IMG/VR virus record: IMGVR_UViG_3300037961_002559
Coordinates: 1-37,456 of that record
Reading direction: 5' to 3' (one strand)
Length of the DNA stretch: 37,456 nucleotides
Source: a virus
Shown: positions 11,034 to 33,900 of the stretch, piece after piece
How positions within the stretch are numbered: position 1 is the stretch's first letter
Layout of the letters: every line of letters starts with the position of its first letter
Translations under genes and position numbers: made by a program
The notes under the pieces: model-generated
Told to the model about the DNA's origin: nothing
The model's input: only the letters and a program-made list of their open reading frames with translations
The model's database searches: none

Positions 11034-11536
11034 GTATCTTTCAAGAGATAAAAGAATTAGCAGGTAACGAACCCAGATCATATTCTTGGTATCGTGATGC
11101 TGTACGGATGCATTTTCAACAGTCTGATATATATTCGGACTTGTCTGGAATGGAAGAAACAATGATACCATCTCCTGGTAATCTATATCTTTTTGAATAT
11201 AAGGCAACCTATGCAAGAAAATTAAAATTTTATGATGAGTTCCCTTTGGTATATGTTGTTAGTGGTGGTCCAAAATTCATGGGAGCAAATCTACATTATC
11301 TAAGATATAGATCTAGAATGAATGTCATTCTTGGTTTGGAAAATGGTAGAGCTAGATTCCCTAAACAGTGTTATCATAATTATGTTGTTGAAGGACTAGA
11401 AACACCACTATATAAAATAAATAGTGAAGACTATAAGACTGCCATCTTTCTTCCCATTGAGAGTTTTGTTACTAGAAGGAAAGGTATGTATCAACAATAC
11501 AGTAAATCAGCCGTTTGGGGAGAAACATCTCAATGA
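11030..11536 (+). CDS. Conserved phage assembly protein with KFPLV-type motif (168 aa)
   Basis: A 168-residue protein that starts MSIFQEIKELAGNEPRSYSW and contains the pattern GNLYLFEYKATYARKLKFYD followed by EFPLVYVVSGGPKFMGANLHYL. Many T4-like and other marine phages carry proteins with this YD.FPLV...GF.G.NLHYL pattern. I recall some being labelled DNA end protector (gp2), and the T4 map does place gene 2 near gene 4, but the resemblance to T4 gp2 itself cannot be judged here. It is coupled to gp4 upstream and gp54 downstream by ATGA overlaps, so a role in head completion or head-tail joining is plausible. Confidence 0.55.
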   Translation: MSIFQEIKELAGNEPRSYSWYRDAVRMHFQQSDIYSDLSGMEETMIPSPGNLYLFEYKATYARKLKFYDEFPLVYVVSGGPKFMGANLHYLRYRSRMNVILGLENGRARFPKQCYHNYVVEGLETPLYKINSEDYKTAIFLPIESFVTRRKGMYQQYSKSAVWGETSQ

Positions 11537-12351
11537 GAGTTGCAGATAATCAAATACAAATGTCCAACTACTCCGAGTTTAAATCGGTTGCTGGTAGATA
11601 TGGATTTAGTACAAACAATTTCTACGAAGTTAGATTTGAAATAGAACCATCTCATCCTCTGTATAGAGAATTAGCAAAGGATGCTGAGTTGAGTATGACA
11701 GAAAACAAAGAGTTGATGAGACTCTATACAGAAGAAGCATCACTTCCTGGTGTTCAAATTTCTACTGGTGAATATAGGGTTACTAATTCTCCTACACTTA
11801 AGTATGGTTATGGAGCAGTGTTTAGTGAATTTAATACTACATTTTTAATGGATGCCGATTCCAGAATTAAAGGAGTCTTTGATGTCTGGACTAACTGGAT
11901 ATATGGATACACCTCTAGATTAGAACAGGTCATCGGACCATTTTACAGAAGAACACCTAAACTAAGAACAAGATATAGAGATGATTATGCTGTAGATATT
12001 GTAATCATCAAGTATGAAAAGTCTATGAGTAGTCATGCGAATGGACCAGGACAAAATGTTGGTAACTATAGTATTAAAGATATAATACCAGATAGCAGGA
12101 GAGAAGGTGGGACACAATTCTATAAGGCAATTCCTACTTATGCAATGAGGTTGTTCAAAGCATTTCCATCAAATGTTTCGTCGGTAACTTTAAATAATAG
12201 TTCGACTGAATTAAATAAACTCTCGGTTCAGTTTGAGTACGAGACTATGACTACTAGTGTATTGAATGATGGTAAGATCAACGGTTCAATTGAAGATCCT
12301 ATTAACGGTGGTATTAATGTTTTGGATTTAGCTCAGTTCTTCGGATTGTGA
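11533..12351 (+). CDS. 54: Baseplate tail-tube initiator, gp54-like
   Basis: The start is placed at ATG 11533, overlapping the previous stop (ATGA); an in-frame ATG at 11515 is an alternative. The 272-residue product has the tail-tube-like core: a long N-terminal strand (NFYEVRFEIE), a helical insert with ELSMTENKELMRLYTEEA, then LPGVQISTGEYRVTNSPTLK, YGYGAVFSEFNTTFLMDADS, and a FDVWTNWIYG helix, followed by a hairpin with DYAVDIVIIKYEK. This layout is that of proteins that start or continue the inner tube (gp54/gp19 fold). The location between gp4 and gp26 in the hub cluster favours gp54. Confidence 0.65.
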   Translation: MRVADNQIQMSNYSEFKSVAGRYGFSTNNFYEVRFEIEPSHPLYRELAKDAELSMTENKELMRLYTEEASLPGVQISTGEYRVTNSPTLKYGYGAVFSEFNTTFLMDADSRIKGVFDVWTNWIYGYTSRLEQVIGPFYRRTPKLRTRYRDDYAVDIVIIKYEKSMSSHANGPGQNVGNYSIKDIIPDSRREGGTQFYKAIPTYAMRLFKAFPSNVSSVTLNNSSTELNKLSVQFEYETMTTSVLNDGKINGSIEDPINGGINVLDLAQFFGL

Positions 12352-12393: not shown

Positions 12394-13113
12394 ATGCCTT
12401 TACCAAAACTTACAGCACCAACATATGAGTTGGAAGTGCCATCGACAGGAAAGAAAATTAAATATAGACCTTTCCTTGTTCGAGAAGAAAAAATTCTTCT
12501 TCTTGCAATGGAGACGGAAGATGAAAAACAAATGGCGGATGCTGTAAAAACTATTCTCCAAAATTGTATTCAAACTTCTAGGTTTAAAGTTGATAATCTT
12601 TCTTTATTTGACATTGAATATATCTTCTTAAATATTCGTGGTAAATCTATTGGTGAGCAAGTGGAACTTACCGTCACTTGTCCAGATGATGGTGAATCAA
12701 CCGTTGATGTTTCTATTGACTTGGATGATATCAAAGTTCAAAAGTCAAAAGAACATACCAATATTTTAAAACTCAATGATAATATTTCGGTTGTAATGAA
12801 ATACCCTAGTGTTGATTTGTTTATTAAAAACAATATGGGTAGTGGACAATCTTCTGAAGTTGATGATGTGTTTGAAATCGCTTCTTTATGTATTGATCAA
12901 ATTGTAGAAGGTGAAGATGTTTATGAATCATCTAACTTTTCAAAGAAAGAACTCATGGAATTCCTTGAGGGTATGGACACCAAACAATTCTTAATGGTTC
13001 AAAAGTTCTTTGAAACAATGCCTAAGTTGTCACACACAATCACCGTAACAAACCCAAACACAAAAGTTAAAAGTGATGTAGTGATTGAGGGTCTATCAAG
13101 TTTTTTCTCGTAG
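12394..13113 (+). CDS. 26: Baseplate hub assembly protein gp26
   Basis: A 239-residue member of the T4 gp26 family (T4: 208 residues). It starts MPLPKLTAPTYELEVPSTGK, continues KIKYRPFLVREEKILLLAME, then KTILQNCIQ, FDIEYIFLNIRGKSIGE, the beta part VELTVTCPDDGE, and a C-terminal helical bundle ending FFETMPKLSHTITVTNPN. The protein is needed to build the baseplate hub. Its last sense codons (AGT TTT TTC TCG TAG) hold a -1 slippery heptamer at 13101-13107, so some ribosomes are expected to continue into gp51. Confidence 0.85.
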   Translation: MPLPKLTAPTYELEVPSTGKKIKYRPFLVREEKILLLAMETEDEKQMADAVKTILQNCIQTSRFKVDNLSLFDIEYIFLNIRGKSIGEQVELTVTCPDDGESTVDVSIDLDDIKVQKSKEHTNILKLNDNISVVMKYPSVDLFIKNNMGSGQSSEVDDVFEIASLCIDQIVEGEDVYESSNFSKKELMEFLEGMDTKQFLMVQKFFETMPKLSHTITVTNPNTKVKSDVVIEGLSSFFS

Positions 13114-13149
13114 CCCTGTCTCATGAAAGTCTTGAGAATTACTACAGGG
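13101..13149 (+). promoter_or_regulatory. Predicted -1 ribosomal frameshift signal (gp26 to gp51)
   Basis: The canonical slippery heptamer T TTT TTC lies at 13101-13107 in the gp26 frame. A 6-nt spacer (13108-13113), which includes the gp26 stop TAG (13111-13113), follows. Then comes a stem CCCTGT (13114-13119) / ACAGGG (13144-13149) with an inner stem CTCA (13120-13123) / TGAG (13133-13136). After slippage the -1 frame is open to 13295 and reads FFLVALSHESLENYYRVNF directly into gp51. The -1 frame has no ATG, GTG or TTG between its previous stop (13086) and ATG 13161. Confidence 0.75.
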
Positions 13150-13160
13150 TAAACTTCAGC

Positions 13161-13295
13161 ATGATGCAACATCACAAATATAGTTTGACAGAACTAGAAG
13201 ATATGATTCCATGGGAAAGAGAAATCTATGTAACCATGTTGGTTGAATACATCAAAGAAGAAAACGAAAGACAAAAGAGTCAACAACAGAGTTAA
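13161..13295 (+). CDS. 51: gp51-like hub assembly protein (stand-alone start, or -1 frameshift extension of gp26)
   Basis: The frame is open from 13089 to TAA 13293-13295. The first standard start is ATG 13161, giving only 44 residues (MMQHHKYSLTELEDMIPWER and a polar tail). However, protein-like sequence begins earlier, with HESLENYYRVNFS at about 13122, which has no start codon and can only be made by -1 frameshifting from gp26 at 13101-13107. The extended form would be a gp26-gp51 fusion of about 300 residues. As I remember cyanophage gp51 annotations, they are short and share the QHHKYSL.E...M.P.ERE pattern. The Shine-Dalgarno for 13161 is weak. Confidence 0.65.
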   Translation: MMQHHKYSLTELEDMIPWEREIYVTMLVEYIKEENERQKSQQQS

Positions 13296-13296
13296 T

Positions 13297-15225
13297 ATGC
13301 CATTACCCGCAGTGTTAGGAGGATTTTTAAAAGGCGCCGCCGGCGCCGGAGCTCGTGGTGCTGTAAAATCTGGAGTTGCTAGAGCAATCAAACCGAAAGG
13401 TAAAGGTGGAGCTTTAGTTAAACCAAAACAGTCTATGTCAATGGCACAACCATCTGGTGCTATTGTTCCTGTAAAATCTTCTGGGGGTGGATCAGATGGT
13501 GGTGGTGGAGCTCTGTCAACATCTATAGCACCAAAGTCTCAGAAATCAACTGCAATAGTAAAGTCAAATTTATCTGGTAATGAATCAGCAATTGAAGTTT
13601 TAAGATCTGTAAAACAAACTGCTGATCAAATCCTAGAAGTAGAGGTTCGTGATCTCGGATCTAGTGAAGAAGAATTAAAACAGAGAAAAGATCAAATAGA
13701 TGATGAGAGAAAGGCATTAGAAGCTTCGAAGAGAGAAGAAGAACAAGATAAACAAGAATCAAAAAAGAAAAAACCAAAAAGAAAAAAAGCAAATCCTATT
13801 GTTAATGCCGCTAAGAAAACTGTAGGTGGAATTTGGGATTTCTTAACAGGTATGTTGGGTGAGTTTATAAAATATAAAATTCTGGATTGGATATCTAAAC
13901 CAGAAAACAGAGAAAAGATATTGGGTATAGTTAGATTTGTACAAAAGATACCAGAATACTTTGGTATCTTTAAAGAAAAAGTTATTGACCCTTGGTGGCC
14001 TGTAGTAAGTAAAATTGCTGTTGGTGGATTCAAAATATTTAAAGAGTTCCTTGATGTATTCCTAGATTTAGTAACATTAAACTTCCTCAGAAATCCTGAT
14101 GAATTTTTTGAAAATTTATTAGATATTCCTAAGACCATTATTGAAGTTGTACCTGGAATTATAGATTCATTACTGGAAGCAATTACTGGTGGTGCAATTA
14201 AAAATATTGGTGAACTTGCAGATTCAGTATTTAAAAATCCACTAGAAGGTATAGATTTTGGTGCAGCACTTTCTGGATTGGGTGGTAGTATAGGTGATTT
14301 ATTTAAGAAACCTTTGGAAGTAATTGGTGGTGCTCTTACTACTGCAAAAGATGCTTTTGTGGGTGGAGCACAAGCAACAGGACAATTCATTGGTGATCGT
14401 GCTTCTGATACTATGGATTTCCTTGGGTCAGCATTCAATGCTGTCACTGGAACTCAACCTGCATCTGCAGGAACATTAGACTCTGCTCCAGCACAACCAA
14501 CTGTCTCAACTGTTATACCTAAGGGAGAAACAAATTTATCAGCAGTTTCTGGATATGAAATTACTTCAGCATATGGTTCGAGGGAAGGTTTTAGAACCAA
14601 AGATCACGGTGGATTGGATATAGGAACACCAGTCGGAACAAATATTGCTCTTGCTGAAGACGGTGAAATTGTTGCTGCTGGAAGATATGGTGGTTATGGC
14701 AATTTAATTGATGCTTGGTTACCAAAAACTGGTGTCCAACTTAGAATGGCTCATCTAGCATCTATTGTGAAAAATAGTGGTTCGTTTAAAGCTGGTGAAG
14801 TCATTGGTAAGACTGGAGGTGCTGCTGGTGATCCTGGAGCTGGTTCTTCGACTGGTCCTCACCTCCATTTTGAAATGGATAGAGTTAAGGGTGGTGCTGC
14901 ATATGGTGGTAGTGGTGACCCCACTCCATTTGCTAAACTATTAATGTTGGGTGGTGGTACTACAGGTATACCGAAACCAGAACCATCTCCATCAGCATCT
15001 CCAATTGTTGCTAATCAAATACAACCATCTTCTGGTAAAACTTTAACTCAAATACAAAGAGAGAATCAGATGTTAGAAGATTCTGGTTTAAGTGCATTAC
15101 AGACACCTATTGTAACTAACAACAGTAATACATCACAATCATTAATAGAAGAAACAGTTTCTTCTACTTTACTTGGTTCAACGTTACCAAAATCTGGTCT
15201 CCATGCAACATATAAAGGGGTCTGA
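13297..15225 (+). CDS. Tail hub/tape-measure-like protein with C-terminal M23 endopeptidase
   Basis: The start is placed at ATG 13297, 1 bp after the gp51 stop; the open frame back to 13243 is overlap only. The 642-residue layout is: a Gly/Ala-rich N-terminus, a Gly/Ser linker, a charged coiled coil (about 125-170, EEELKQRKDQIDDERKALEA), a basic KKKKPKRKK patch, and a hydrophobic helical middle (about 175-330) with KILDWISKPENREKILGIV. A further linker leads to an M23/lysostaphin-type peptidase (about 425-545). Zinc motifs are H437-G-G-L-D441 and H522-L-H524 (GPHLHFE). M23 enzymes cut peptide cross-links in peptidoglycan. It is probably a virion protein that opens the wall at infection. It shares its middle scaffold with the next gene. 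Confidence 0.85.
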   Translation: MPLPAVLGGFLKGAAGAGARGAVKSGVARAIKPKGKGGALVKPKQSMSMAQPSGAIVPVKSSGGGSDGGGGALSTSIAPKSQKSTAIVKSNLSGNESAIEVLRSVKQTADQILEVEVRDLGSSEEELKQRKDQIDDERKALEASKREEEQDKQESKKKKPKRKKANPIVNAAKKTVGGIWDFLTGMLGEFIKYKILDWISKPENREKILGIVRFVQKIPEYFGIFKEKVIDPWWPVVSKIAVGGFKIFKEFLDVFLDLVTLNFLRNPDEFFENLLDIPKTIIEVVPGIIDSLLEAITGGAIKNIGELADSVFKNPLEGIDFGAALSGLGGSIGDLFKKPLEVIGGALTTAKDAFVGGAQATGQFIGDRASDTMDFLGSAFNAVTGTQPASAGTLDSAPAQPTVSTVIPKGETNLSAVSGYEITSAYGSREGFRTKDHGGLDIGTPVGTNIALAEDGEIVAAGRYGGYGNLIDAWLPKTGVQLRMAHLASIVKNSGSFKAGEVIGKTGGAAGDPGAGSSTGPHLHFEMDRVKGGAAYGGSGDPTPFAKLLMLGGGTTGIPKPEPSPSASPIVANQIQPSSGKTLTQIQRENQMLEDSGLSALQTPIVTNNSNTSQSLIEETVSSTLLGSTLPKSGLHATYKGV

Positions 15226-15228
15226 TAA

Positions 15229-17397
15229 ATGTCTGATTTAAACGTAACTGCTCACGGTATAAATCCAGAAACAGGAGAATATCTTTCTCCCGCTGAGAGA
15301 AAAGCTCTGTTCAAAAAACAGAGAATGAAAAGTAAGATTGACCCAAGTGCTTTTCGTTCTGGTGTATCTACAGCTAAAAAAACATCAGACACTAGAGACT
15401 TACCTGGAGGAACTGGTGGCGGTGGAATAGTTAAATTTAACATACAAGATGTAGCAACAGCAGGATCATCAATAATAAAATCTGATGTCATAAACCCACA
15501 AGAAGAACCAGTTCAAAAAGTTAATGTAGAGGACTTAGGACCAACAGAAAGTTCTGAGGATAAAAATTCTCAGTTCAAGGATTCACTTAAAGAATTATTA
15601 GAATCTTTTAAGAAAATTTTAAACTTAAAAGAAAAACAAAAAAATATAAAGAGTAGAGTAACTGAACTTGGAAAGAAACTAACACCAAAGAAGGGACCAA
15701 AGAAAAAGAAGAGTAAGATTGGTGGAACAGATGTATTGGGTATCGGTAGGAAGATAAGGAGTGCGACTACAAAAGTATTTGGTGATATATTTGGAATGTT
15801 TGGTGATATATTACAGTTTGCTGTCTTGGATTGGATATCTAAACCAGAAAATAAAGAGACGATAAAAAGTATAGTTAAAGTTGCTGGAGAAATTTTTAAA
15901 TGGATTGATAAAGTTGTTACGTTTGGAATAGATACTGCTCTCACAGGAATATCTGAACTTGTTACACCTGGTAATAGCATCACAGAAAGACTTGGTGGAT
16001 TCCTAAAAATATTTGGTGTACTACTTGGGTTGAGATGGTTGACAAATCCTTTTAAAATAATAAAGGATTTGAGACGAGCAATTAAATTTGTAAAGGGGTT
16101 TGGTAAATTTGCTAATAAACTATTATCAAAACCATTCAAGTTTATACAAAATTTTGTAAAAAAATTCATATCAAAAGGTTTTAATTCTATATTTAAAGGA
16201 AAGATATTTAAACCAATTAGAAGATTTATATTGAAGATTGGTGGTAAGAGTGCCTTAAAATTATTAGGTGTTTTTGGTAGATCTATGACCAAATTTATTT
16301 CTAGGATACCAGTCTTAGGTGGTCTTTTAGATTTCGCATTGAATGTATTTGTGTTCAAAGAAAATCCTGGAAGAGCTGCATTTAAAGCGATTGGTGCTAC
16401 ATTGCTTGGTGCTTTAGGTCTTATACTGGGTCCTGTTGGTGCAGTCCTTGGAGGATTTACTGGTGACTGGGCTGGTGGAAAGATTTATGATGTGTTCTTT
16501 GGTGGACAACCAGCAACTGGGTATACACCACCAACTAGAGAAGAACTAGTGGCACAGACAGAACGTGGAAGTGGGATGGCATCATTCCGTGAAGATAGTG
16601 CTGAGAATGCTGCATTACAAGAGAGTGTGAGATCTGGTAATGCATCAGGTTCAAAGACTGGTAGTGTTAAAGCCCTATTGAACACCATTAGATATGCAGA
16701 AGGTACAGCTGGTCCAAATGGATACAATACTTGGTTTGGTGGTAGAACTGATATGGATTTAACATCCATGACAATCAATGAAGTTGTTGCGGAACAGAAA
16801 AGAAGACTTAGAACTGGTGAGGCAACATATGGTAAATATACATCCGCAGCAGTTGGTGCTTATCAGATGATGGAACCAGAAAAAGCAGCTGCAGCAATAG
16901 GATTAGATCCTGCTACTACAAAGTTTACTCCTGAAATACAGGATAGAATAGCAGTTGATTATTATATGAAGAAACAAGCTAGAATGTCTCAGTCTGAAAT
17001 TGAAGCTCCTATTAGTAAGGCGCAGATTGCAAAGATTTCTGGAGTTTGGGCATCCTTACCAAACGCTGTCGGTGATAGTGCTTATGATCAACCAGTGAAA
17101 AAGTATAAAGAATTGGAAAATGTTTATAACAAAAACATGGGTCCGATGTCAACTCCGCCACCAGTTATAAGAAAGGCAGAGAAACCAAAAGCAGTATTCA
17201 AACCAAGTAAAGTAGTTGCATCTCCAATGCCCGCAATGAGCACGTCATATATGTCAAATAGAAAATTTAGAAGAAGGTCTGCAACTGTACCAATCATTGT
17301 TAACAGTATGAACAATGCAACTATGAATACAAATGTTACTGCACTGTCTCTAAATAGCACAAGTATATCAGACAATTCTGTTTTTAATAAGATATAA
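15229..17397 (+). CDS. Tail hub/tape-measure-like protein with GH104-like muramidase domain
   Basis: A 722-residue protein paralogous in its scaffold to the upstream one: a polar N-terminus, a charged coiled coil (about 110-165), then FAVLDWISKPENKETIKSIV and long hydrophobic/basic helices (about 185-400), including a Gly-rich GATLLGALGLILGPVGAVLG segment. The C-terminal domain (about 480-640) resembles the lambda R endolysin family (GH104 lytic transglycosylase): AEGT with putative catalytic E491, YNTWFGG, TSAAVGAYQMM, FTPEIQDRIAVDYY and the WASLP signature at W607. It would cleave glycan strands. A Ser/Thr/Asn-rich tail follows. It is 3 bp after its neighbour, and its stop overlaps the gp27-like start (TAATG). 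Confidence 0.82.
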   Translation: MSDLNVTAHGINPETGEYLSPAERKALFKKQRMKSKIDPSAFRSGVSTAKKTSDTRDLPGGTGGGGIVKFNIQDVATAGSSIIKSDVINPQEEPVQKVNVEDLGPTESSEDKNSQFKDSLKELLESFKKILNLKEKQKNIKSRVTELGKKLTPKKGPKKKKSKIGGTDVLGIGRKIRSATTKVFGDIFGMFGDILQFAVLDWISKPENKETIKSIVKVAGEIFKWIDKVVTFGIDTALTGISELVTPGNSITERLGGFLKIFGVLLGLRWLTNPFKIIKDLRRAIKFVKGFGKFANKLLSKPFKFIQNFVKKFISKGFNSIFKGKIFKPIRRFILKIGGKSALKLLGVFGRSMTKFISRIPVLGGLLDFALNVFVFKENPGRAAFKAIGATLLGALGLILGPVGAVLGGFTGDWAGGKIYDVFFGGQPATGYTPPTREELVAQTERGSGMASFREDSAENAALQESVRSGNASGSKTGSVKALLNTIRYAEGTAGPNGYNTWFGGRTDMDLTSMTINEVVAEQKRRLRTGEATYGKYTSAAVGAYQMMEPEKAAAAIGLDPATTKFTPEIQDRIAVDYYMKKQARMSQSEIEAPISKAQIAKISGVWASLPNAVGDSAYDQPVKKYKELENVYNKNMGPMSTPPPVIRKAEKPKAVFKPSKVVASPMPAMSTSYMSNRKFRRRSATVPIIVNSMNNATMNTNVTALSLNSTSISDNSVFNKI

Positions 17398-21719: not shown

Positions 21720-21804
21720 GGGACGGTGGCGGAATTGGTAGACGCACCAGACTTAAAATCTGTTGATCATTATGATCGTGAGGGTTCAAGTCCCTCTCGT
21801 CCTA
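21720..21804 (+). tRNA. tRNA-Leu (anticodon UAA)
   Basis: A complete 85-nt class II tRNA. The acceptor arm GGGACGG (21720-21726) pairs with TCGTCCT (21797-21803), with A at 21804 as discriminator base. The D-arm is GGCGGAATTGGTAGACGC-like, the anticodon loop CTTAAAA carries anticodon TAA, there is a long variable arm (GATCATTATGATC region) and the T-arm is GAGGG-TTCAAGT-CCCTC. CCA is not encoded. It reads UUA, a codon common in this AT-rich genome, and probably supplements the host pool during late expression of the large structural genes. Confidence 0.95.
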
Positions 21805-21923: not shown

Positions 21924-24900
21924 ATGGCTCTAACGAGAGTTACTTCAGGTGGTATAGCAGAAGGCGTACAGATTAAGTTTGATAGTGCTAATACCCCTAC
22001 AACCCCAGCAATTGCTTTTGAGAATGATCCAAATACTGGTATCTATCAAAATGCTGAAGATGAACTGTCAATTTCCACTGCGGGTGTCCGTAGGGTAACT
22101 TTTAAGGCAGATGGTTCTATCGAAACTGGTAATGGTACTATTCTTGGTGGTACTAACCCAGATTTTGATAACGCAGCAAATATTACTTTATATGTAAACC
22201 AGTCAGACAAGAATGCTACTGATGCAACGTCAAATGACGGTGGTAATTTAAATAAACCATTTAAAACCATTGAGAGAGCACTTCTTGAAGCTGCTAAAAG
22301 AAGTTATAAACCAGATCCCACACCAACGGCAGCTGGATCATTTATAGATGGAAAAACTTATACCGTTACAACTTTATCCACAGGTGGTGGCGCAGCAACA
22401 GATTTTACCGCAATTGGTGCTTCTAGTAATACTGTAGGTGTATCGTTCATTGCAACTGGCGTTGGTGCAGGCACTGGTACAGCAACTCTCAATAATGATA
22501 AATTTGAAGCATTCACTATTATGGTGCTTCCTGGTCAATATGAAGTTGATAACAGACCTGGACTTGATCTGTTTAACACAAACGTTTTGACCACTGCTGC
22601 TGTAGAGGATCCAGACGATGGTCAGGGTGCTAGACAAATCACCGATCTTGCGGATGGTGGTATTTGGAGATTTAACTCAAGAAATGGTGGTGTTATCGTA
22701 CCAAGAGGAACCTCTATTGTAGGTTATGACTTAAGAAAGACAGTCGTTAGACCAAAATATGTTCCTGCACCTTTCTCGGTTGATGGTAGCATAACTAGTG
22801 ACAGTTATGCACTTCGTCAGATAGCACTTGATGGTGCTATAATGCTTGAGAGAAGTCGTGGATATATTGTTGAGCAAGCTAGACTTGCTATGGATGGTGG
22901 TTATAATACAGTTGGTCAAGGTGCTGGTAGTAACACCCAAGCTCAAAGTGGATGGAATAGTTTAACTTCTTCTCAAGAAGCTGCGTGTATTCGTGACATT
23001 GGTTATTTCGTTGATGCTTTAATTAAGGATTTACGTGAAGGTGGTAATGAAAATACATTTGTTAACGCTGAATCATATGTTGATGGAAATGGATATAGAC
23101 AAGAATTTGTTAAGGCTAACGATTCTAACATAACCGATGAAATTGCTGCTACTAGACTTGCTTTTGCAGTAGCAGTCAATGCTGCGAGACACATTGTCAA
23201 GAGTGAAAGTGATAATGCAACTTATTATAATCATATCAGTGGTGGATCTATTTCTCAGCCATCATTTGCTGCAGGTAACGGATATGACGGTGCTGGAGAT
23301 TGTACTGATGTGGTTAATGCTGTTGCAGTCCTAGGTGCAATTGCTGATGCTATTATTGCTAATCCAAATACCTATACCGCTATTAATACAACATATACCG
23401 CAATCGGTTCTGGTGCTGGAACAATCACAATTCCTCTCAGAAAGGTTCAGGGTGTATATGAACAAACTGCTATCTTCAAGGTAACTGGTGGTTGTTATTT
23501 CTGGCAGATGACATTTAAGGATGCTCTTGGTACACCTTATCAAAGCACTTCCTTTACAAATGGTATCCCAACCCACGTAAAAGCATCTAATTCAACTTAT
23601 TCTCACCATAGAGTAGTCGCATTTACGTATGCTGACCAAAGAAACACTGATGGTGAATTGGACCAATATTATGGAAAAATTGACGCATGGCAAGGAAGAA
23701 TTCCTCCTGCTCAAACTGACCTACTTGACGTAAGAACAGAAGAATTCCAGATCGTTGGTGATAGAAGTAAGAATTATACTATTGATACTGTAAACTCCTG
23801 TTCTCCTTATATCTTTAACTGTTCACTACGTTCTGTCTTTGGTATGTGCGGTATGCATACCGATGGTAGTAAAGTTGCTGAAAACAGTTTCAAGTCGATG
23901 GTTGTTGCCCAGTTCACGGGTATTTCGCTACAGAAAGATAGGAATGTATTTGTTCAACCTAAGGATAAGGAGGGTGATACTAACGTAACAGCAGCTCCAA
24001 ATGCAACTACGACTTATAATGATGATGATCCATCTACTGCAGGAAAACCTCCAATTTTTGCTGATCCAGATGGACAATATAAAACTGATTGTAGACACTT
24101 CCATATCAAGGCATCAAACGGTGGATTTATTCAGGTAGTTTCTGTTTTCGCCGTTGGTTATGCTGATCAATTCCTCGCTGAGTCTGGTGGTGACATGTCT
24201 ATCACCAACTCCAACTCCAACTTCGGTCAGTTATCACTAAGAGCGAAAGGATCTCAGTTCAGATCATTCAAACCATCTGCTCAAGGAAGAATTACTGCAC
24301 TTATTCCACCTAGAGGTATTAGTGATTCATCGGTTGATAATAGTTTCTACAGCATTGATGCAGTAAACACCTGGGGTCAGGAAGGACTTGCTGCTGACTC
24401 TGGTGATGACTTTACTGATGAGTTAAAAGGTAAACTTGCAAACTTTAAAGGAACTGGTGGATTTAAACTATATCTACAAACTGGTGCAACTTCAGAAGCT
24501 GATATTCCAGAATTGGTTGTAACTAGCATTGATTATAGTCTACCAAAAGTAAATGGAGAATATCAAACTGTAACCAAAAGATTCTTAACTTATGGATCTC
24601 AAGGCGAATTTGCTTTGTTTAGAGATTTTTATGCCGATGATGGCGTTACTCCTAGTGCATATAGAAAGTTAAAACTAATTTTAGAAACTTCCACTGGAAC
24701 AACTGGAGAAGGTGGTGGTACTACTTTCAATATCTCTCTAAATACCTCTTACGATAATGTTGCAGATAATTTTGCAGATGAAGATAATAATAACGAAAGA
24801 ATTGGATATTTTTGGGATCCTAACTCATCTTCAGTCTACATTAAACTACAAAACGACACTGCTACAAACAATTTCTTAGACGGATTCATCTTTGCTTCCG

Positions 24901-27900
24901 ACTCAGAACAAACTTTCACATTTGAAACAGTATTTGACTCAAATACTGGTGCTACTACTACACAACTTGTTTCTGGTACAAAAGATACTCTAAGATATAG
25001 ACAAGGTTTCCCATCAAACCTACTTACTACCAAGTATTTTGATGATAGAGATTCTTCACCAGAAGATTTACTTTGGAGAGTTGAGTACACAATTCCTAAG
25101 AATTTACCTTCAGGTGTAAATCCAAAACCACCAGAAAAGAGATTTATTATTAAAGGAACTAGAGCAGATAATGGTGAAGATAACGTTCCATATAGTGACT
25201 ACAGATTTATGATCTGGGATGTCCAGGAAGTTCAAGCATGGGATGGTGCGACATCAACTAATGCTGGTTCAGATGGTATTTACTATCTAACTATTGTCAG
25301 AGCAGACGTTAACAAATTTGTTGATATATTTGATAGTGTAGTTACTAATACTAACGTTGTTGGTAAAATTGAGAGAAGATCTATTGGTATTTCTGCAAAT
25401 AGAGCTTTTGCTTGCGAGAATATTGAGTCCGTCAACTTGTTTGACAAAGATACCAAGTTAATCACAAATGTTAACTACTTATATCCATCAGTAAACCAAG
25501 AAGCTCCTACTTACAACACAAGAACTATCTGGAATCCACCACAGTCTGACTCTAGAGTTATGACTGAGGCAATCCAAGATGGTAGAAGAATTAAGGACAT
25601 TTCCGTTCCAAACTTCAAGAGATTCCATGCTAGTGCATCAAATTCCCCATTCAAAGATATCCCTGCACTGCAGTCGGTAACAGCAGAAACTGTACATAGA
25701 CTTGTACAAGCTCTTGACCTCAGATATGTCATAGATACTGGTTCCGCTACTAGTGCATCAACCGATAGAGTTTTCGTTGCTCCTGTAGCTTCTTGGGACG
25801 GTAGATCTTCTCAGAGTGCTCTTGGTTATACTTCTACTTCCAGTGATCTATATTCCGCTACCCGTAGATTTGGTTTCTCTGAAACTGTTCCTACTGGTAC
25901 GCTACCAGAAAACGCTGAAGCTGTTACTAAGTTTAATAACTTTGGTGTTCAGGGTGAAGCTCTTGACAGAAGAATTATTGTTTGTTCTTTAAGTGCAGAT
26001 GGTGTTAACTCAACAACTCGCGCCATCACTGCTCCTGTTCTACAAAACAGCACTCTTGCTAATCCAGATGGACTTACATTTGCTCCAATAGTTCCTCTCT
26101 ACAGACCATCAATTCTACGTGCATCTTCGCATACTTGGGAATATATTGGTCTTGGTTCTGGTAACTATTCAACTGGTTTCCCCAACCTCCAGACAAGAGT
26201 TCTCAAACTATATGAACAGTTTATTGCACAGGGTTATGAAAACGCTGGTGGTTTCGTTGCATCTTCTGGTACTAACTCCGCTGGTGATTTCTATATCGGT
26301 AACCAGGTCATTCAAGCAGGTGGTACAAGCACAGTTACTCTAAACGTACCTAAAGTCCGTAAATCATCTGAATCGAACTTTGTTGATATTGAAAATATTG
26401 AGAATAGAATTTCTAACGCAGTTATTAATATTACCACTAGTGGTAGAGCAACTGCACAACAAAATGCACTGAAGGATTTAACTAACTTCTTCAATATTCA
26501 GAAACTAACTGTTAATGATACTGCAAATATTACTAATCTAATTACTGATAGATTCTTCATTAATAGATCTGAAATTAATAACGCTGCATTCTTCCCAGAA
26601 GGTAATACTAGTGCATATGGTTTCGTTAAGGGTGCAAAACCAGAGAAAACTGGTTTCATCTCCACCGATACTAATGATAAGTTGTATGTATCTCCTAAGT
26701 ATCTTGACGCATGGAGAGTTAAGAGACAACTAATCTCTGCAGCAGCTGTTACATTAGATAACAACAGAGTATACATCCAACCATATCTACAATCCGCTAC
26801 ACAGGGTTATGTATCTACATCACCTGGAACTGGTTTACAATCAATTCCCTCAGCAACTGCACTGACTTATGATGCTACAACTGTTAATGGTGTTAATGCA
26901 TCAACATCCAACACGGATCTAATTAAATTAAAAGTTGTTGAAACCGCTGGTATTGCATCATTTGGTAAAGTTGATGTCTCTATGTCATTAACTGGTATTG
27001 GTATTGAAGATTATTACAAAGATACCAATGATGATAAGTTTTATCTAAATCCGAAGGTAACAATTCCACTTTCTTATGAGTCTGTTGATTATACTACAAA
27101 TGAAGTCGTTCTTTCAAAAGTACAAAACGGCGTTGGAATTATTGATTACCTCAAGAGTTACATTGGTGGAACTCACAATACACTGATTAAAAACTATCCA
27201 CCACTTACAGCTTCTGGTGCGGCTGGTATCGATGCATCGGAAAGTGATGTTAAGTTCTTGAAATCAAAATTACATGCTGACTTCAATGCAGCAACTGGTG
27301 GTAGTGGAAGTTCTTCCACAATTGATCCAGATAACAGAAGTACATATGCTACTATTCGACTTGCGATCACTACTCAAGCAGAATATGATGCATGGCCAGA
27401 TAGAGGTTCTATCTCACTAAGAGAATATCAGAAGGGTGGTACATATTATATTTCATCTTATAAGTATAGGAAAATACAATTTGTTTATAGTGATGATGGT
27501 AATTCCGCCAATGATTATGCAGAATTTAGATTATTTGACAACTATGGTGCAGCATCGAACAATGCCGGTTTAGCGCATACATTTACAGCTAACTACAACA
27601 ATAACTATCCAGGTGTAGATTCCAAAAACGTATTCTTTACTGGTTGTGATAGTTTGGTATTTGACTCCGACAGATGGACATCAGAATCTCCATTCATTCC
27701 ACCTCTTGATCCTACTAAGGGAGTTGTTGAGGAAGTTAATATTGAAGATGCTATTCTTTATAGAGTTCCAGAAAAGAAACTTCCTATTGCTATTAGTTTG
27801 GATCAGGATTATTTTGATAGAAACCTTCCAAACCCATATAGTTCAAAAGCTCTTGGTGTTAATATCCAAGAGAGAAATGAAGTTAAGAGATTCTCACCAC

Positions 27901-30900
27901 TATTCGAATTCAGTCAGTGCAAACAGTGGGCAGAACAATCTGGTTTTGGTTCTAAAGATGAATTAGAACTATTAATGAAACCTGGTTACTATAAGATGGA
28001 TGGTTCTGTATTCCCATGTTCCGTTAAAATTAATGGTACTGGTGTTACAAAATCTAGTATCTTTGCTGGTAAGGAACAGACTAGAACATCTCAAGGCAGA
28101 ATGGGTGGATACCTAGAAGATACTGTAAAGAGAGGAGATAGTGTATATCTCTATCGTACATTAGGTTTCACTAAACAATATGGTGTTGGTAATGATGCAA
28201 TTTACAGTCAAATTAGTGGTGGACTAACTGCTGATGGTTCTTTTAACCTTTCAAATGTTCACTTGTTAGGTATTAATGAATCTATTACGAAGAATGAAAT
28301 TCCAGATAGTGTCTTTAGTGACGATAGAGATACCCAAAACGCTAGAAGAGTCGTAAGAAACGCATACTTTACGAAGGGTGCTATCAAGAAAGAATCTAAC
28401 ACAGCAAACACCTCTTCCGCAGCAACTTTGAATGCTCATAACGGAAATACATTATCAACATCTGGTGTTGATGGTGGAATTGATTTAATGATGAAACAAT
28501 CTGGTGGTAGTGTATCAAATTTTGGTGCTATAGCATATCCAGTTATTAAGAGTGGTGATATGATTCAAAATGATCCTTCCGCTTCAGATCATTACGAATT
28601 GAATCAAGCAGACTTTACTAACTCTAGATATTTCTCGATTGAGATTAAAGCATCTGATTATGCTGCTAATGCTACTTTAAGATCAAAATTTGACAGGATG
28701 AGAAAATACATCATACCTGGTACAACAATGTATTACTTGACTAATCCTCAAGATCCAGTGGTAGTATTATCAGATGAAGCTACAGTTTCCAACTTAACAG
28801 TTTCAACAAAAGTTCTTAGTGTAAGAAAGATTAATCCTTCTGTAAGTTTGGATTTTGATTCAAATTCTACAGAATCTATTCAGGTATTAGTTTCTGTATA
28901 TAGAGCTGCAAGTGGTACTGATCAGACAAATGCAAACTCCGATAGTTATACTAATGACACTGAAGATTTAGACACTGGTAATTGGGCTTCAAATCCAAAT
29001 ACTTTAAGAAAAATTGTCTTCTTGAATGAAGATGGTGCGGAATACACTACATTAATGTACAATTGGGCTCTAGAAACCAGAAGAAATTTCCTTCCAAAAG
29101 GATTTGTGCATGAAGGTGGATATCAAGGTCCTATTCTTAAGAAAGTTACACTATCTGTAACTGGAGCAACTAATGTAAGAGATATTGTAGTTGACAGTGT
29201 TAGAGATATTGAAGTAGGTGATAGAATTGCTTGGAGAGATATAAATGGTACTGATCAACTCAATAACTTTAGAGTTTCTGGAATCAATACTTCTAGTAAG
29301 ACAATCACAGTCTCGGATGATATACCGACTGGTGTTGTTATTGGAATTGATAGTATTGTATCAATCACTAAATTTGATGTATTTGGTGATGAAGTCACTA
29401 AATTTGACACTCCAGAAATATATGGTGTTTTGAGGAGTTCTGAACCAGATCAATTGGTTTTGGTTGTTGATAGAAATCCAAATAAAGATTATGATACTAC
29501 AATTGCTCCATATCCATTTGCTTCTGGATCCTTTGGAAATCATCCAACACAATTAATTCAATTAAAACATGAATATGACTTCCCAGAAGCAACTGATACG
29601 ACTGAATATGGTTCTTTAGAGGATGCTGCTCTTGCATTTAACAGAGTTAAAGCATCTTATCAGAGAGTTAATGGTATTGAAAATGACAGATTCCTGTTTA
29701 TTGATGTTAATCCTCGCGGATTTGCCACTCTATCTAATACCGAGGGTGTCCCAGACCCACAAGATGCAGCGATTACTGGTTCATATTTAGAAAATGCTGG
29801 TATTCATAGAGATATCTTGGTTGACTTTGCAAACTTTGATCAACAATCAATTAGAAACGGTGGTGGATTTGGTAAAGGATTTACACAAACAACCGTAACT
29901 ATTGCATCTACTAGTACTGATTATTCAACTGCTAGAACTTACCTTGAAACTACAATTGCTAACGCACTAAATCTGACTAGCACAAGAAACTACAATAGCA
30001 GATTAAGAGTTATTGTATCGGGTATGTCTGTTGGTACTTGGAGATTCTATGCCAATATCAATACCGATCCAAATCATGGTACTTATAAGATGGGTGAAAT
30101 TACTCAGATTAGATGCTATAGTACCAATTCTAGTAGTCCAACTGTAATTAGTGGTGATCTTACAATTGATGTTATTGATGGTAAAGGACATGTTCTTTCT
30201 CAATCTGGTAGAACTGTTTCTACTTCTTCTACTATTGGTTCTATCAGTTCCAGTGACTTTACCGCTGTTGCTAAAGCTAATCTACTTGCTGCAGCAAAAC
30301 TCAATGTCGATCCTACAGGTCAGAATCAAGATGTTACTGAATTAGGTTCTCCATATTTGGAATCTGTACTTTACGATGGTACATATACTGACGATCCAAT
30401 TATTGAAACTGCTAGAGGAAAGAAAATCTATAATACTTGGCCTAAGTCATATAGAACTCTAAGGAGAAGATTCCCTCTTGCTGGTATGCCAATTAATGGT
30501 AATTATCAATCATCGATGATTTCTGTTAATTCTCTTCCTGGATCTAATTTTGCACTAAATCTAACTGGTGTTACCATTGGTGCTCAATCTCCTGCTGATA
30601 GTTCAGCGAATACATTTGGTGGTGGATATCGTGGTGGATTGATTAAGTGTAGAGGTGCTCAACTAACACTTAGCGGAACAAGATTTAGAGGTAATCTATC
30701 TCTTGACTGGATGGGAATTGGTACTGTAGGTGATGCGAGAGCAAAATCGAGTTCTAACGGATCATTTGTTGCAGGACACTCCATTGAGATGTTCCAGATG
30801 GAAGATCAAAACTCATTTAGAGCGATTGGTGGTGGTAGTCCAGCGAAGGAAATCAGAACATCTAACTTGGATGAAGAGTTTAGACAGTTAACTGAGTTTG

Positions 30901-33900
30901 ATCCAGTATCTAATGTATACTTAGAACCTGGTAAAGATCCTTATGGTAGGTTATCTGATGGTGATGCTAGAACATTCCCATTGAATACTAGACAAGCTAT
31001 TAGAAGATTCAATAAATCAACTGGTAGTGTAATTCCATGGGTAAATGATGATGGAACTAATCAAGCTTCTATTGCACCTGGTGTTTTACTAGATAGAGTT
31101 GCGTTGTTTGAAAGATATCAAACACCTTACGGTATTCTTTACGATGCACCTAGTGGTAACCCAGTAAATCCAGAATTAGTTAGTGGTTATATCCCAACTG
31201 CTAATGGTTATGCATCTGGTGTTATGTTGAGATGGAGAGATACTAGTGCTGCGGTAACGTATGTAGTTGGTGGAGGAGAAAATATTTCACTTCCAACTAG
31301 AACATTAGGTTTCTTTGTTGTTGATAATGTTGCTGGTCAAGATATCCCATCAAACATCTTCTTCGGTAAGAATGCAACTGGTATAGTTAAAGCAGAAAAA
31401 TCTGGTAATGACACTACAACTTTTGTTGAAAGTACTTACGCTCTTGTTAAGTCTACTTCTCAATTATCTAGAAAGTTTAATATTGCTACAAATGGTGATA
31501 TTACTGAAAGTTCTACTGGTAAGTATATCTTTATTCAGGTAACATTTGATAGAAATAATGCTTTTGATCCATTAACCGAATCAACAGGAACTGTTCTCAA
31601 CTTTAACACTGATTATCTAGATGCTAAGAGATATAATTATGTTTCTACTGTAACTTCAAGATATGCGAAGTCTACTCAAAACAATTTTGCAAAACTTGTT
31701 GTAGAACAGTCTGATGATAATACGGTTTACTCACAACCAGCAAACTATGCAATTGATGGTGAAAATAATACTTGTCAAGCAACTTTTACTAACACAACAA
31801 CTGCTACTGAACTTTATCTAGTCAACCAAACCAATACAACAACTGCTGTATCTGGTAGAGCATTAATTACTACAAATAGTTCTAGAAAAATTACATCACT
31901 TTATATTACAGATCCTGGTCAAAATCATAGTGCTGGTGATGTCTTACATTTAGCTACTAGTTCTAATGGAGGTTCTGATCAGGTATGTCCTGGATTTACA
32001 TTAAAGATAAGAAATAACTATAGTAACGAAGATTTCTCTATCTTCAACAAAGGTGAATATAAAGTTATGCTACCTAAGAACTGTTTCATTCTAAATTCTA
32101 TTGAAAATGGTTCTAGTGCTAGACAACTCAAACAGCAGATCAATGCTGCTAAGGCAATCTTTAAACCAGGTAGTTACATTCTACATAATGGTTTGTATTA
32201 TAAGATTGCTAAGAGTGATACAGCAACCAATAAGTCTTATATTGGTGTTTATAGATATGTCAATCCATCTAACACATCCGACATTAGAGCAGATATTGTA
32301 ATTGAACTTGATGATATCTCATTCAATCCAACATATGCTTCAAATACTAGATTTGATTTATTTGATAATGACAACCTCCTTAATTACTGGCCTACCGATG
32401 GAAGACTTGTAATTGGAAATAGAGAAACTTGTGACTACGTGAAATCTGGTAGTGCATCAGATCCTAAGGGATTTGAAATTAGACTTACTAGAAGTATGAC
32501 TAAGTATTGGCCTCATTACATCCGTGACTGGGAAGGTCTTGATCCAAATAATGCTTCTGACAACACAGTTTCGTCTGAAAGTATCATCCCAACTGAAATT
32601 AGAATGTCTGATCCAGTTGACGTAACATGTTATGGTCTGAAGAGATTTAATAACAGTAACTTTACTGCTGCATGGAGTGATAATGACTCTACTCAACAAG
32701 CTGATATTGTTAATAGACCCATAGGTCATACTTATGTAACACCAACAGGTGTTAAGACTGCTGAAGTAGCAGAAATTTGCATTAAAGCAGCTGATGGTAC
32801 TGGAATTATTGCTGACAATGAAAAACTATCTATTGGACAAACAGTAACAATTCCATATAGAGATAGTGGTGGTTCTTGGAGTACATTTAAAGTAACTGTT
32901 GGTGATGCTCAAGGTATTCCTGGAACTTCTGAATCTACCAATAGAGCAGGTGACCTTTATGTCAGTGGAACATTTAAGGCAGGTTTCAGTTCTAGTGTTA
33001 ATTCAGATCAAACATTTAATATTCATGGAGATAATAACAATGATACTAAAATTTATGGACCTATTAATCCACTAACTTCCACTAAGTTAATTGCTGGATC
33101 AGGTACTTCGTTGAGAACATTTGATCAAAATGGTGGATTTAGAATGTGGGGTTATAGATCTTCTCGTGCTGGTAGCGTGATTACAGCTGCAAACATGCCT
33201 AATGAATCTCAAGGTGGTACTACATACAAATCTATCGCTACGAGTACAGGTATTGACACTAACAAAGAAGGTGCTCTTGCTTTTACAGTTTCTTCTGGAT
33301 ATTATAGATCCATGATTGACATCGGATCTTGGGCTGATTTTACTGCGAAATTTACACAGATTGACGTTACTACAGACCCAACAGAATGTATTATGGAAGT
33401 TACCGCTATAAATGATGGTGCTATTTACAGAGGTCAACCAATCTATGCATCTGGAACTGCTCCTTCATTAACGATTACACCTAAATCATCTCCAGGAAAT
33501 ACTGATACAGATCGTTACACATTTAGTTCTATAAATACTGGTACTTTTAGCAACCTCATTGGTTGGGTTGTCGGATTTGATGGTGATACAATTTCTACTT
33601 CTGATACCACTCTAGATGGAAATCCATTTGTAACTAGTAATTATGAAGATGATCTTGAATTAACTGGACGTGGTGGAACTGGTAAATATAGAGTACTATT
33701 AAATCAAGCATACACTAGTGCTAATGGAACATTTAGTAATTTGACATTTACTAGTGGTGAAACTGGTTCTATGACTAATGTTTTAGGTAAGTTGGCAACA
33801 ACAGACTATATTCCATATGGTGCTAACCAAGCAATGTGGTGGAACGAACCAGGTAGTGGTGTATATAGATATGTCTGGAAGAGAAGAGTTCTGGATGATG

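Follow-up and report, generated by a model that had tools for sequence, protein, structure and literature searches.

In bacteriophage lambda the tail assembly chaperones gpG and gpGT come from one gene, which gives a short form and a form with a C-terminal extension in the -1 frame and which is located after the tail tube gene. The locus described here appears to be organised in the same way, but the lambda slip sequence is G GGA AAG, unlike the T TTT TTC found here. Closer in this respect is phage P2 (gpE/gpE+E'), where the -1 slip takes place, as predicted for our locus, at a T6 heptamer ending the tail chaperone gene, in this case T TTT TTG. The dnaX gene of E. coli provides a third likeness, having an SD-like element about 10 nt upstream of its slip site (A AAA AAG) and a hairpin downstream; SD-like elements at this distance are an established stimulator of -1 sites. 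The dnaX shift shortens the product, whereas the shift predicted here would lengthen it.

Frameshifting of the G/GT type has been described as widely conserved in long-tailed phages "except T4" (PMC5009743). According to two later papers, Vladimirov, Gautam and Davidson (2022, Virology 566:9-15) identified the chaperone genes of T4-like phages (PMC10885494, PMC12846349). The authors of PRFect summarise that study as showing that some T4-like phages have a short gene together with a fused long one (PMC10885494), and a paper from 2025 attributes to it the finding of poly-T slip signals in genes for the short form (PMC12846349). As far as these accounts describe them, those chaperones, with their short and long forms, apparently belong to the same gene family as the proteins studied here. 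On the same accounts, T4-like tail chaperones with poly-T slip sites have already been published, and the present locus is a well-supported further case.

The window, i.e. the whole stretch of DNA analysed, is the 37,456-base IMG/VR virus record IMGVR_UViG_3300037961_002559 (positions 1-37,456), and its best matches are T4-like cyanophages. The features of the gp26/gp51 locus, the tube-type gene upstream and the 642-aa gene downstream are on the + strand. The gp26 gene (12394-13113, stop codon TAG at 13111-13113) encodes in the zero frame a short form of 239 aa, which matches the Pfam family PF12322 (T4_baseplate) at 1.3e-73 (247.7 bits against a cut-off of 24.5) and phrog_150 at 7.6e-81; NCBIfam had no family for gp26/gp51-type proteins at this locus. 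The last codons of gp26 are AGT TTT TTC TCG TAG, with the single codon TCG between the heptamer and the stop. The -1 frame is open at 13089-13295, beginning right after a TGA at 13086-13088. The part of it that would be read after the slip, the gp51 domain of 62 aa (13107-13295, stop codon TAA at 13293-13295), starts with the codons CTC GTA GCC CTG TCT CAT GAA and the peptide LVALSHESLENYYRVNFSMMQHHKYSL..., and matches phrog_634 ("baseplate hub assembly catalyst") at 7e-30 as well as the C-terminal end of phrog_150 (columns 236-278). The predicted long form thus has 300 aa, made up of gp26 residues 1-238 and the 62 residues of the gp51 domain, and its junction spans ...GLSSFFLVALSHES.... We consider it highly probable that a single gene comprises gp26 and the -1-frame "gp51" and gives two tail assembly chaperone forms via a -1 slip.

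The neighbouring genes are also related to the tail. Directly upstream of gp26 is a gene for a tail tube-type protein (11515-12351; Phage_TTP_2 2.1e-13, phrog_45 tail tube 9.6e-29), and downstream is a gene for a candidate tape-measure/hub protein of 642 aa (13297-15225) with a Peptidase_M23 match (1.3e-14) and weak tape-measure family matches; comparison of this protein with the T4 gp29 tape measure gave no significant match. It has an N-terminal region with a DWISKPEN motif in common (2e-11) with the next tail protein (15229-17397); one of the two has the M23 peptidase and the other matches endolysin families. Further downstream the window contains a single open frame of 4792 codons without a Pfam match (21924-36302), directly preceded by a tRNA-Leu(taa) gene (21720-21804).

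An in-phase T TTT TTC ending gp26, followed by a 6-nt spacer, had been reported in a preliminary description of this DNA, and both are present: the heptamer is at 13101-13107, with the zero-frame codons TTT (13102-13104) and TTC (13105-13107) in the P and A sites, and the spacer at 13108-13113. Alignment with relatives had been proposed there as a check. Relatives were collected from IMG/VR, using gp26 itself, a pf16-led alignment and single divergent proteins as queries, and from phage records, which gave 170 loci (149 of them unique) with both gp26 and gp51 readable. The heptamer T TTT TTN is kept in the same phase in 168 of the 170, its last base being C in 137 loci, T in 28, A in two and G in one. 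Since the three heptamers ending in A or G turn Phe-Phe into Phe-Leu, it is the base pattern and not the amino acid pair that is conserved. Among the other Phe-Phe codon pairs of the same loci only 34 of 598 (5.7%) have the T TTT TTN form, and the TTTTTTC of the slip site is the only one on the + strand of the window; the heptamer is therefore not a chance occurrence. A zero-frame stop follows 0-9 nt after the heptamer in 166 of the 168 loci. The other two (L145 and L170) have the slip site but have lost the usual gp26 stop, and their zero frame continues 24 nt beyond the heptamer. The - strand of the window carries 11 copies of TTTTTTC, and the scarcity on the + strand hints at avoidance of this sequence in coding strands. 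The open reading frames of the window contain only one other X XXY YYZ site with a long -1 extension (1327-1345), and it was rejected as a candidate, the next gene having its own ATG which overlaps the stop.

In the surveyed loci the -1 frame runs on beyond the gp26 stop. The preliminary description regarded this frame as protein-like and lacking a start of its own, and in the window no ATG, GTG or TTG is found before 13161. The first possible start, the ATG at 13161-13163, is not conserved among the relatives, and a protein initiated there would miss the conserved HESLENYYRVNF segment. Selection was assessed in the 46 loci in which none of the 12 codons following the slip is ATG, GTG or TTG. 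In these loci pN/pS was 0.43 for the -1 frame, compared to 0.97 for frame 0 and 1.39 for the +1 frame, and stops within 17 codons occurred in 0/46, 46/46 and 42/46 loci, respectively. This substitution pattern indicates purifying selection on the -1 frame in loci that lack a start codon there.

A different explanation would be independent translation of gp51 as a small protein, with ribosomes coupled to gp26 translation or re-initiating behind the gp26 stop codon, in which case the T6 run would merely be a way of spelling Phe-Phe. Public records do annotate gp51 as a gene of its own, and 79 of the 149 unique loci have an ATG, GTG or TTG within five -1 codons of the slip, a start that overlaps or adjoins the stop in ValKK3, Moby, P10VF, SD25, K397 and phiN3. 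However, the remaining 70 of the 149 lack a start within that distance, and the window phage and about half of the relatives have none before the conserved segment, on which selection acts in the -1 frame; Phe-Phe is spelled T-TTTTT[TC] elsewhere in only 5.7% of cases; and the fused form is encoded as such by T4-type phages. We regard an exclusively separate gp51 as improbable. The preliminary description had proposed that relatives in which the HESLENYY segment begins with an ATG would speak against a fusion. An ATG is in fact found within the first five -1 codons in about half of them (72/149 unique loci), commonly as L-x-M-A-H, but it is no argument against frameshifting, because those relatives keep the T6 heptamer equally strictly. 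It could be that a free gp51 is additionally made in relatives with an early start codon. The two loci without T6, from the Ackermannviridae phage SD25 (L089) and the Vibrio phage K397 (L090), both have a TAATG stop/start overlap, and perhaps re-initiation takes the place of slippage in these phages.

Upstream of the slip site is an SD-like GAGGG (13087-13091), positioned 9 nt before the heptamer (positions -14 to -10) and overlooked in the preliminary description. An SD-like 4-mer is present at this place in 127 of 149 loci, compared to a background of 6.8% when other in-phase places in these genes are counted. Where the protein has Glu at this place, the codon is GAG in 81 of 113 cases, compared to 24% for other Glu codons that precede Gly (binomial p 1e-26). 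As related sequences are not independent, p-values of this kind make the evidence look stronger than it is, but the effect is still large. The GAGGG is likely to be a stimulatory element of the predicted -1 frameshift.

These data also bear on the possibility that RNA polymerase slippage on the T run, and not the ribosome, changes the frame. Some relatives (Melnitz and the phiN3-type) have 7-8 Ts, which would be compatible with such slippage. However, exactly six Ts followed by C are present in 137 of 168 loci, and a six-T run is short for RNA polymerase slippage. The strict codon phase likewise speaks for the ribosome, as does an SD-like element at the spacing known from ribosomal slippage, and a transcriptional origin of the shift is in our view very improbable. 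The -1 programmed frameshift fusing gp26 to gp51, as originally proposed, is strongly supported by the comparative evidence from the sequences.

The stem-loop after the spacer is less constant. The preliminary description called the stem ideal for frameshifting, and in the window sequence it does fold: CCCTGT (13114-13119) pairs with ACAGGG (13144-13149), giving a predicted stem at 13114-13149 that encloses a nested pairing of CTCA (13120-13123) with TGAG (13133-13136) and has a bulge of 7 nt on its 3' side. This is the minimum-energy fold of the 51-nt stretch (-13.4 kcal/mol, z -2.2), and 6 of 200 shuffled sequences gave an equally good fold. Its pairs are, however, broken in the nine closest relatives, where 62.0% were paired compared to 61.8% after shuffling, and RNAalifold found no consensus hairpin at the stem position in these nine. 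The main set of other marine cyanophages has a different hairpin of 11 bp with nearly the same start (columns 13-23 with 33-43). In that hairpin 90.9% of the cells are paired, and 8 two-sided changes were counted compared to 1.4 after shuffling, although the cells may represent few evolutionary events. The two-sided changes are mainly one U-A to G-C swap, which on the 3' side costs a change of Glu to Ala. The downstream structure is thus probably real in places but lineage-specific, while the slip site and the SD-like element are the constant parts.

T4 has two paralogous genes on opposite strands and no slip site, whereas the window has one gene with a slip site. In T4, gene 26 is on the - strand and gene 51 on the + strand, facing away from each other, and they encode proteins of 208 and 249 aa, respectively. 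Both proteins match PF12322 (gp26 at 8.8e-64, gp51 at 3.9e-52) and both match phrog_150, while phrog_634 is matched by gp51 alone (gp51 scores 2.6e-84 for phrog_150 and 1.2e-23 for phrog_634). An alignment of T4 gp51 with the 300-aa fusion, as predicted, continues straight across the junction (3e-8). T4 gp26 ends three residues past the Phe-Phe at the slip point, which is coded GAG TTC TTT without a heptamer, so that T4 has retained the protein motif but not the slip site. Judged from these comparisons, T4 gp26 and gp51 are paralogues that correspond to the predicted short form and long fusion, respectively.

Among complete genomes, those of P-SSM2, Aeh1, ValKK3, pf16, phiN3 and Moby contain one PF12322 gene each and all six have the slip site, while RB43 contains two such genes. 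The window fragment contains one gp26-type gene, not separate short and long paralogues of the T4 type. In an unrooted tree of the domain the T4-type 26 and 51 proteins group together, apart from all slip-site forms (100/100). We infer, on grounds of parsimony, that duplication replaced frameshifting in the T4 lineage, as the unrooted tree gives no direction alone. One T4-type gp51 (L186:2501-3246) has a frame change in the middle of the gene, away from the slip-site position, which may be a sequencing error or decay.

The function of the two forms was approached from the structure. The AlphaFold2 model of gp26 is confident (mean pLDDT 86), and when residues 1-96 were compared with PDB candidates the highest scores were obtained with 3fgx (Z 8.0), the HK97 tail assembly chaperone 2ob9 (Z 7.9) and YqbN 3klu (Z 7.0), with the next rows of the ranking at Z 5.0 and 4.2. 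The alignment with 2ob9 covers model residues 1-86 (84 aligned, rmsd 3.9; Foldseek E about 1). Foldseek searches of the models against the PDB gave no significant match, so the resemblance in fold is support and not proof, and a sequence search of the PDB chains gave no match. For the T4-type long-form model, 2ob9 was at rank 4 (Z 3.7). The N-terminal domain of gp26, as modelled, resembles an HK97-type tail assembly chaperone, which is supportive but not decisive.

It is also conceivable that the frameshift is real but that gp26 and gp51 are structural parts of the baseplate hub and not tape-measure chaperones. This would agree with the Pfam and PHROG names and with genetic evidence for gp26 in the hub, as summarised in a review of T4 (PMC3004832). 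The same review, however, counts both proteins among the assembly chaperones and states that gp51 is absent from the particle (PMC3004832), and Vladimirov et al. (2022), as cited in later papers, class the T4-like genes as tail assembly chaperones (PMC10885494, PMC12846349). The gene order in the window, i.e. tube, gp26/gp51 and large tail proteins (642 and 722 aa, with a candidate tape measure only), fits a chaperone placed between tube and tape measure, and the architecture of a short and a long form and the match of the N-terminal region to the HK97 chaperone fold point the same way. A purely structural role in the hub is thus unlikely. The chaperone pair of the G/GT kind suggested in the preliminary description gains support from the comparative sequence data and from the homology to T4 gp51 through the junction, and we consider it the best reading of gp26/gp51.

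If gp26/gp51 is such a pair, the efficiency of slippage would be such that most ribosomes read on to the TAG at 13111-13113 and produce the 239-aa short form. A minority would pause at T TTT TTC with the upstream GAGGG bound to 16S rRNA and, in the window phage, with the stem-loop ahead of the paused ribosome. Both tRNAs would then slip back one base, giving the 300-aa long form. If the roles are like those of lambda gpG/gpGT, the tape-measure protein would be coated by the short form and tail tube subunits would be recruited by the long form, after which both forms would leave.

On a wider scale, we see about even chances that the chaperone ratio was ancestrally controlled by the SD-like element and the T6N heptamer throughout the T4 superfamily, taken here to cover Kyanoviridae, Schizotequatrovirus/Cinqassovirus and phages of rhizobia, Stenotrophomonas and Pseudomonas. 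The T4 lineage would then have replaced this control a single time, through a duplication in which gene 51 fixed the fusion and gene 26 lost the slip site, and the hairpin would be a fast-changing, lineage-specific tuner.

The frameshift has consequences for the annotation of these phages. In the cyanophage records examined, gp51 is annotated as a separate small protein, and in the record of Melnitz its start is placed inside the conserved domain. A comparison from 2010 found the gp51 of cyanophages and vibriophages to be without about 200 N-terminal residues, and gp51 to be missing in Aeh1 (PMC3037559). In the Aeromonas phage Aeh1 the gp51 domain is unannotated but present in the -1 frame after gp26 (L086:3178-3387), and the stretch L086:3214-3387 matches phrog_634 at 2.1e-13. 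The frameshift would account for both gaps, the missing residues being gp26 and the Aeh1 domain being in the -1 frame. The results further suggest that T4 has been named as the exception to G/GT-type frameshifting because it encodes the two forms separately. The slip site would provide a ready test bed for the need of a contractile-tailed phage for the long form.
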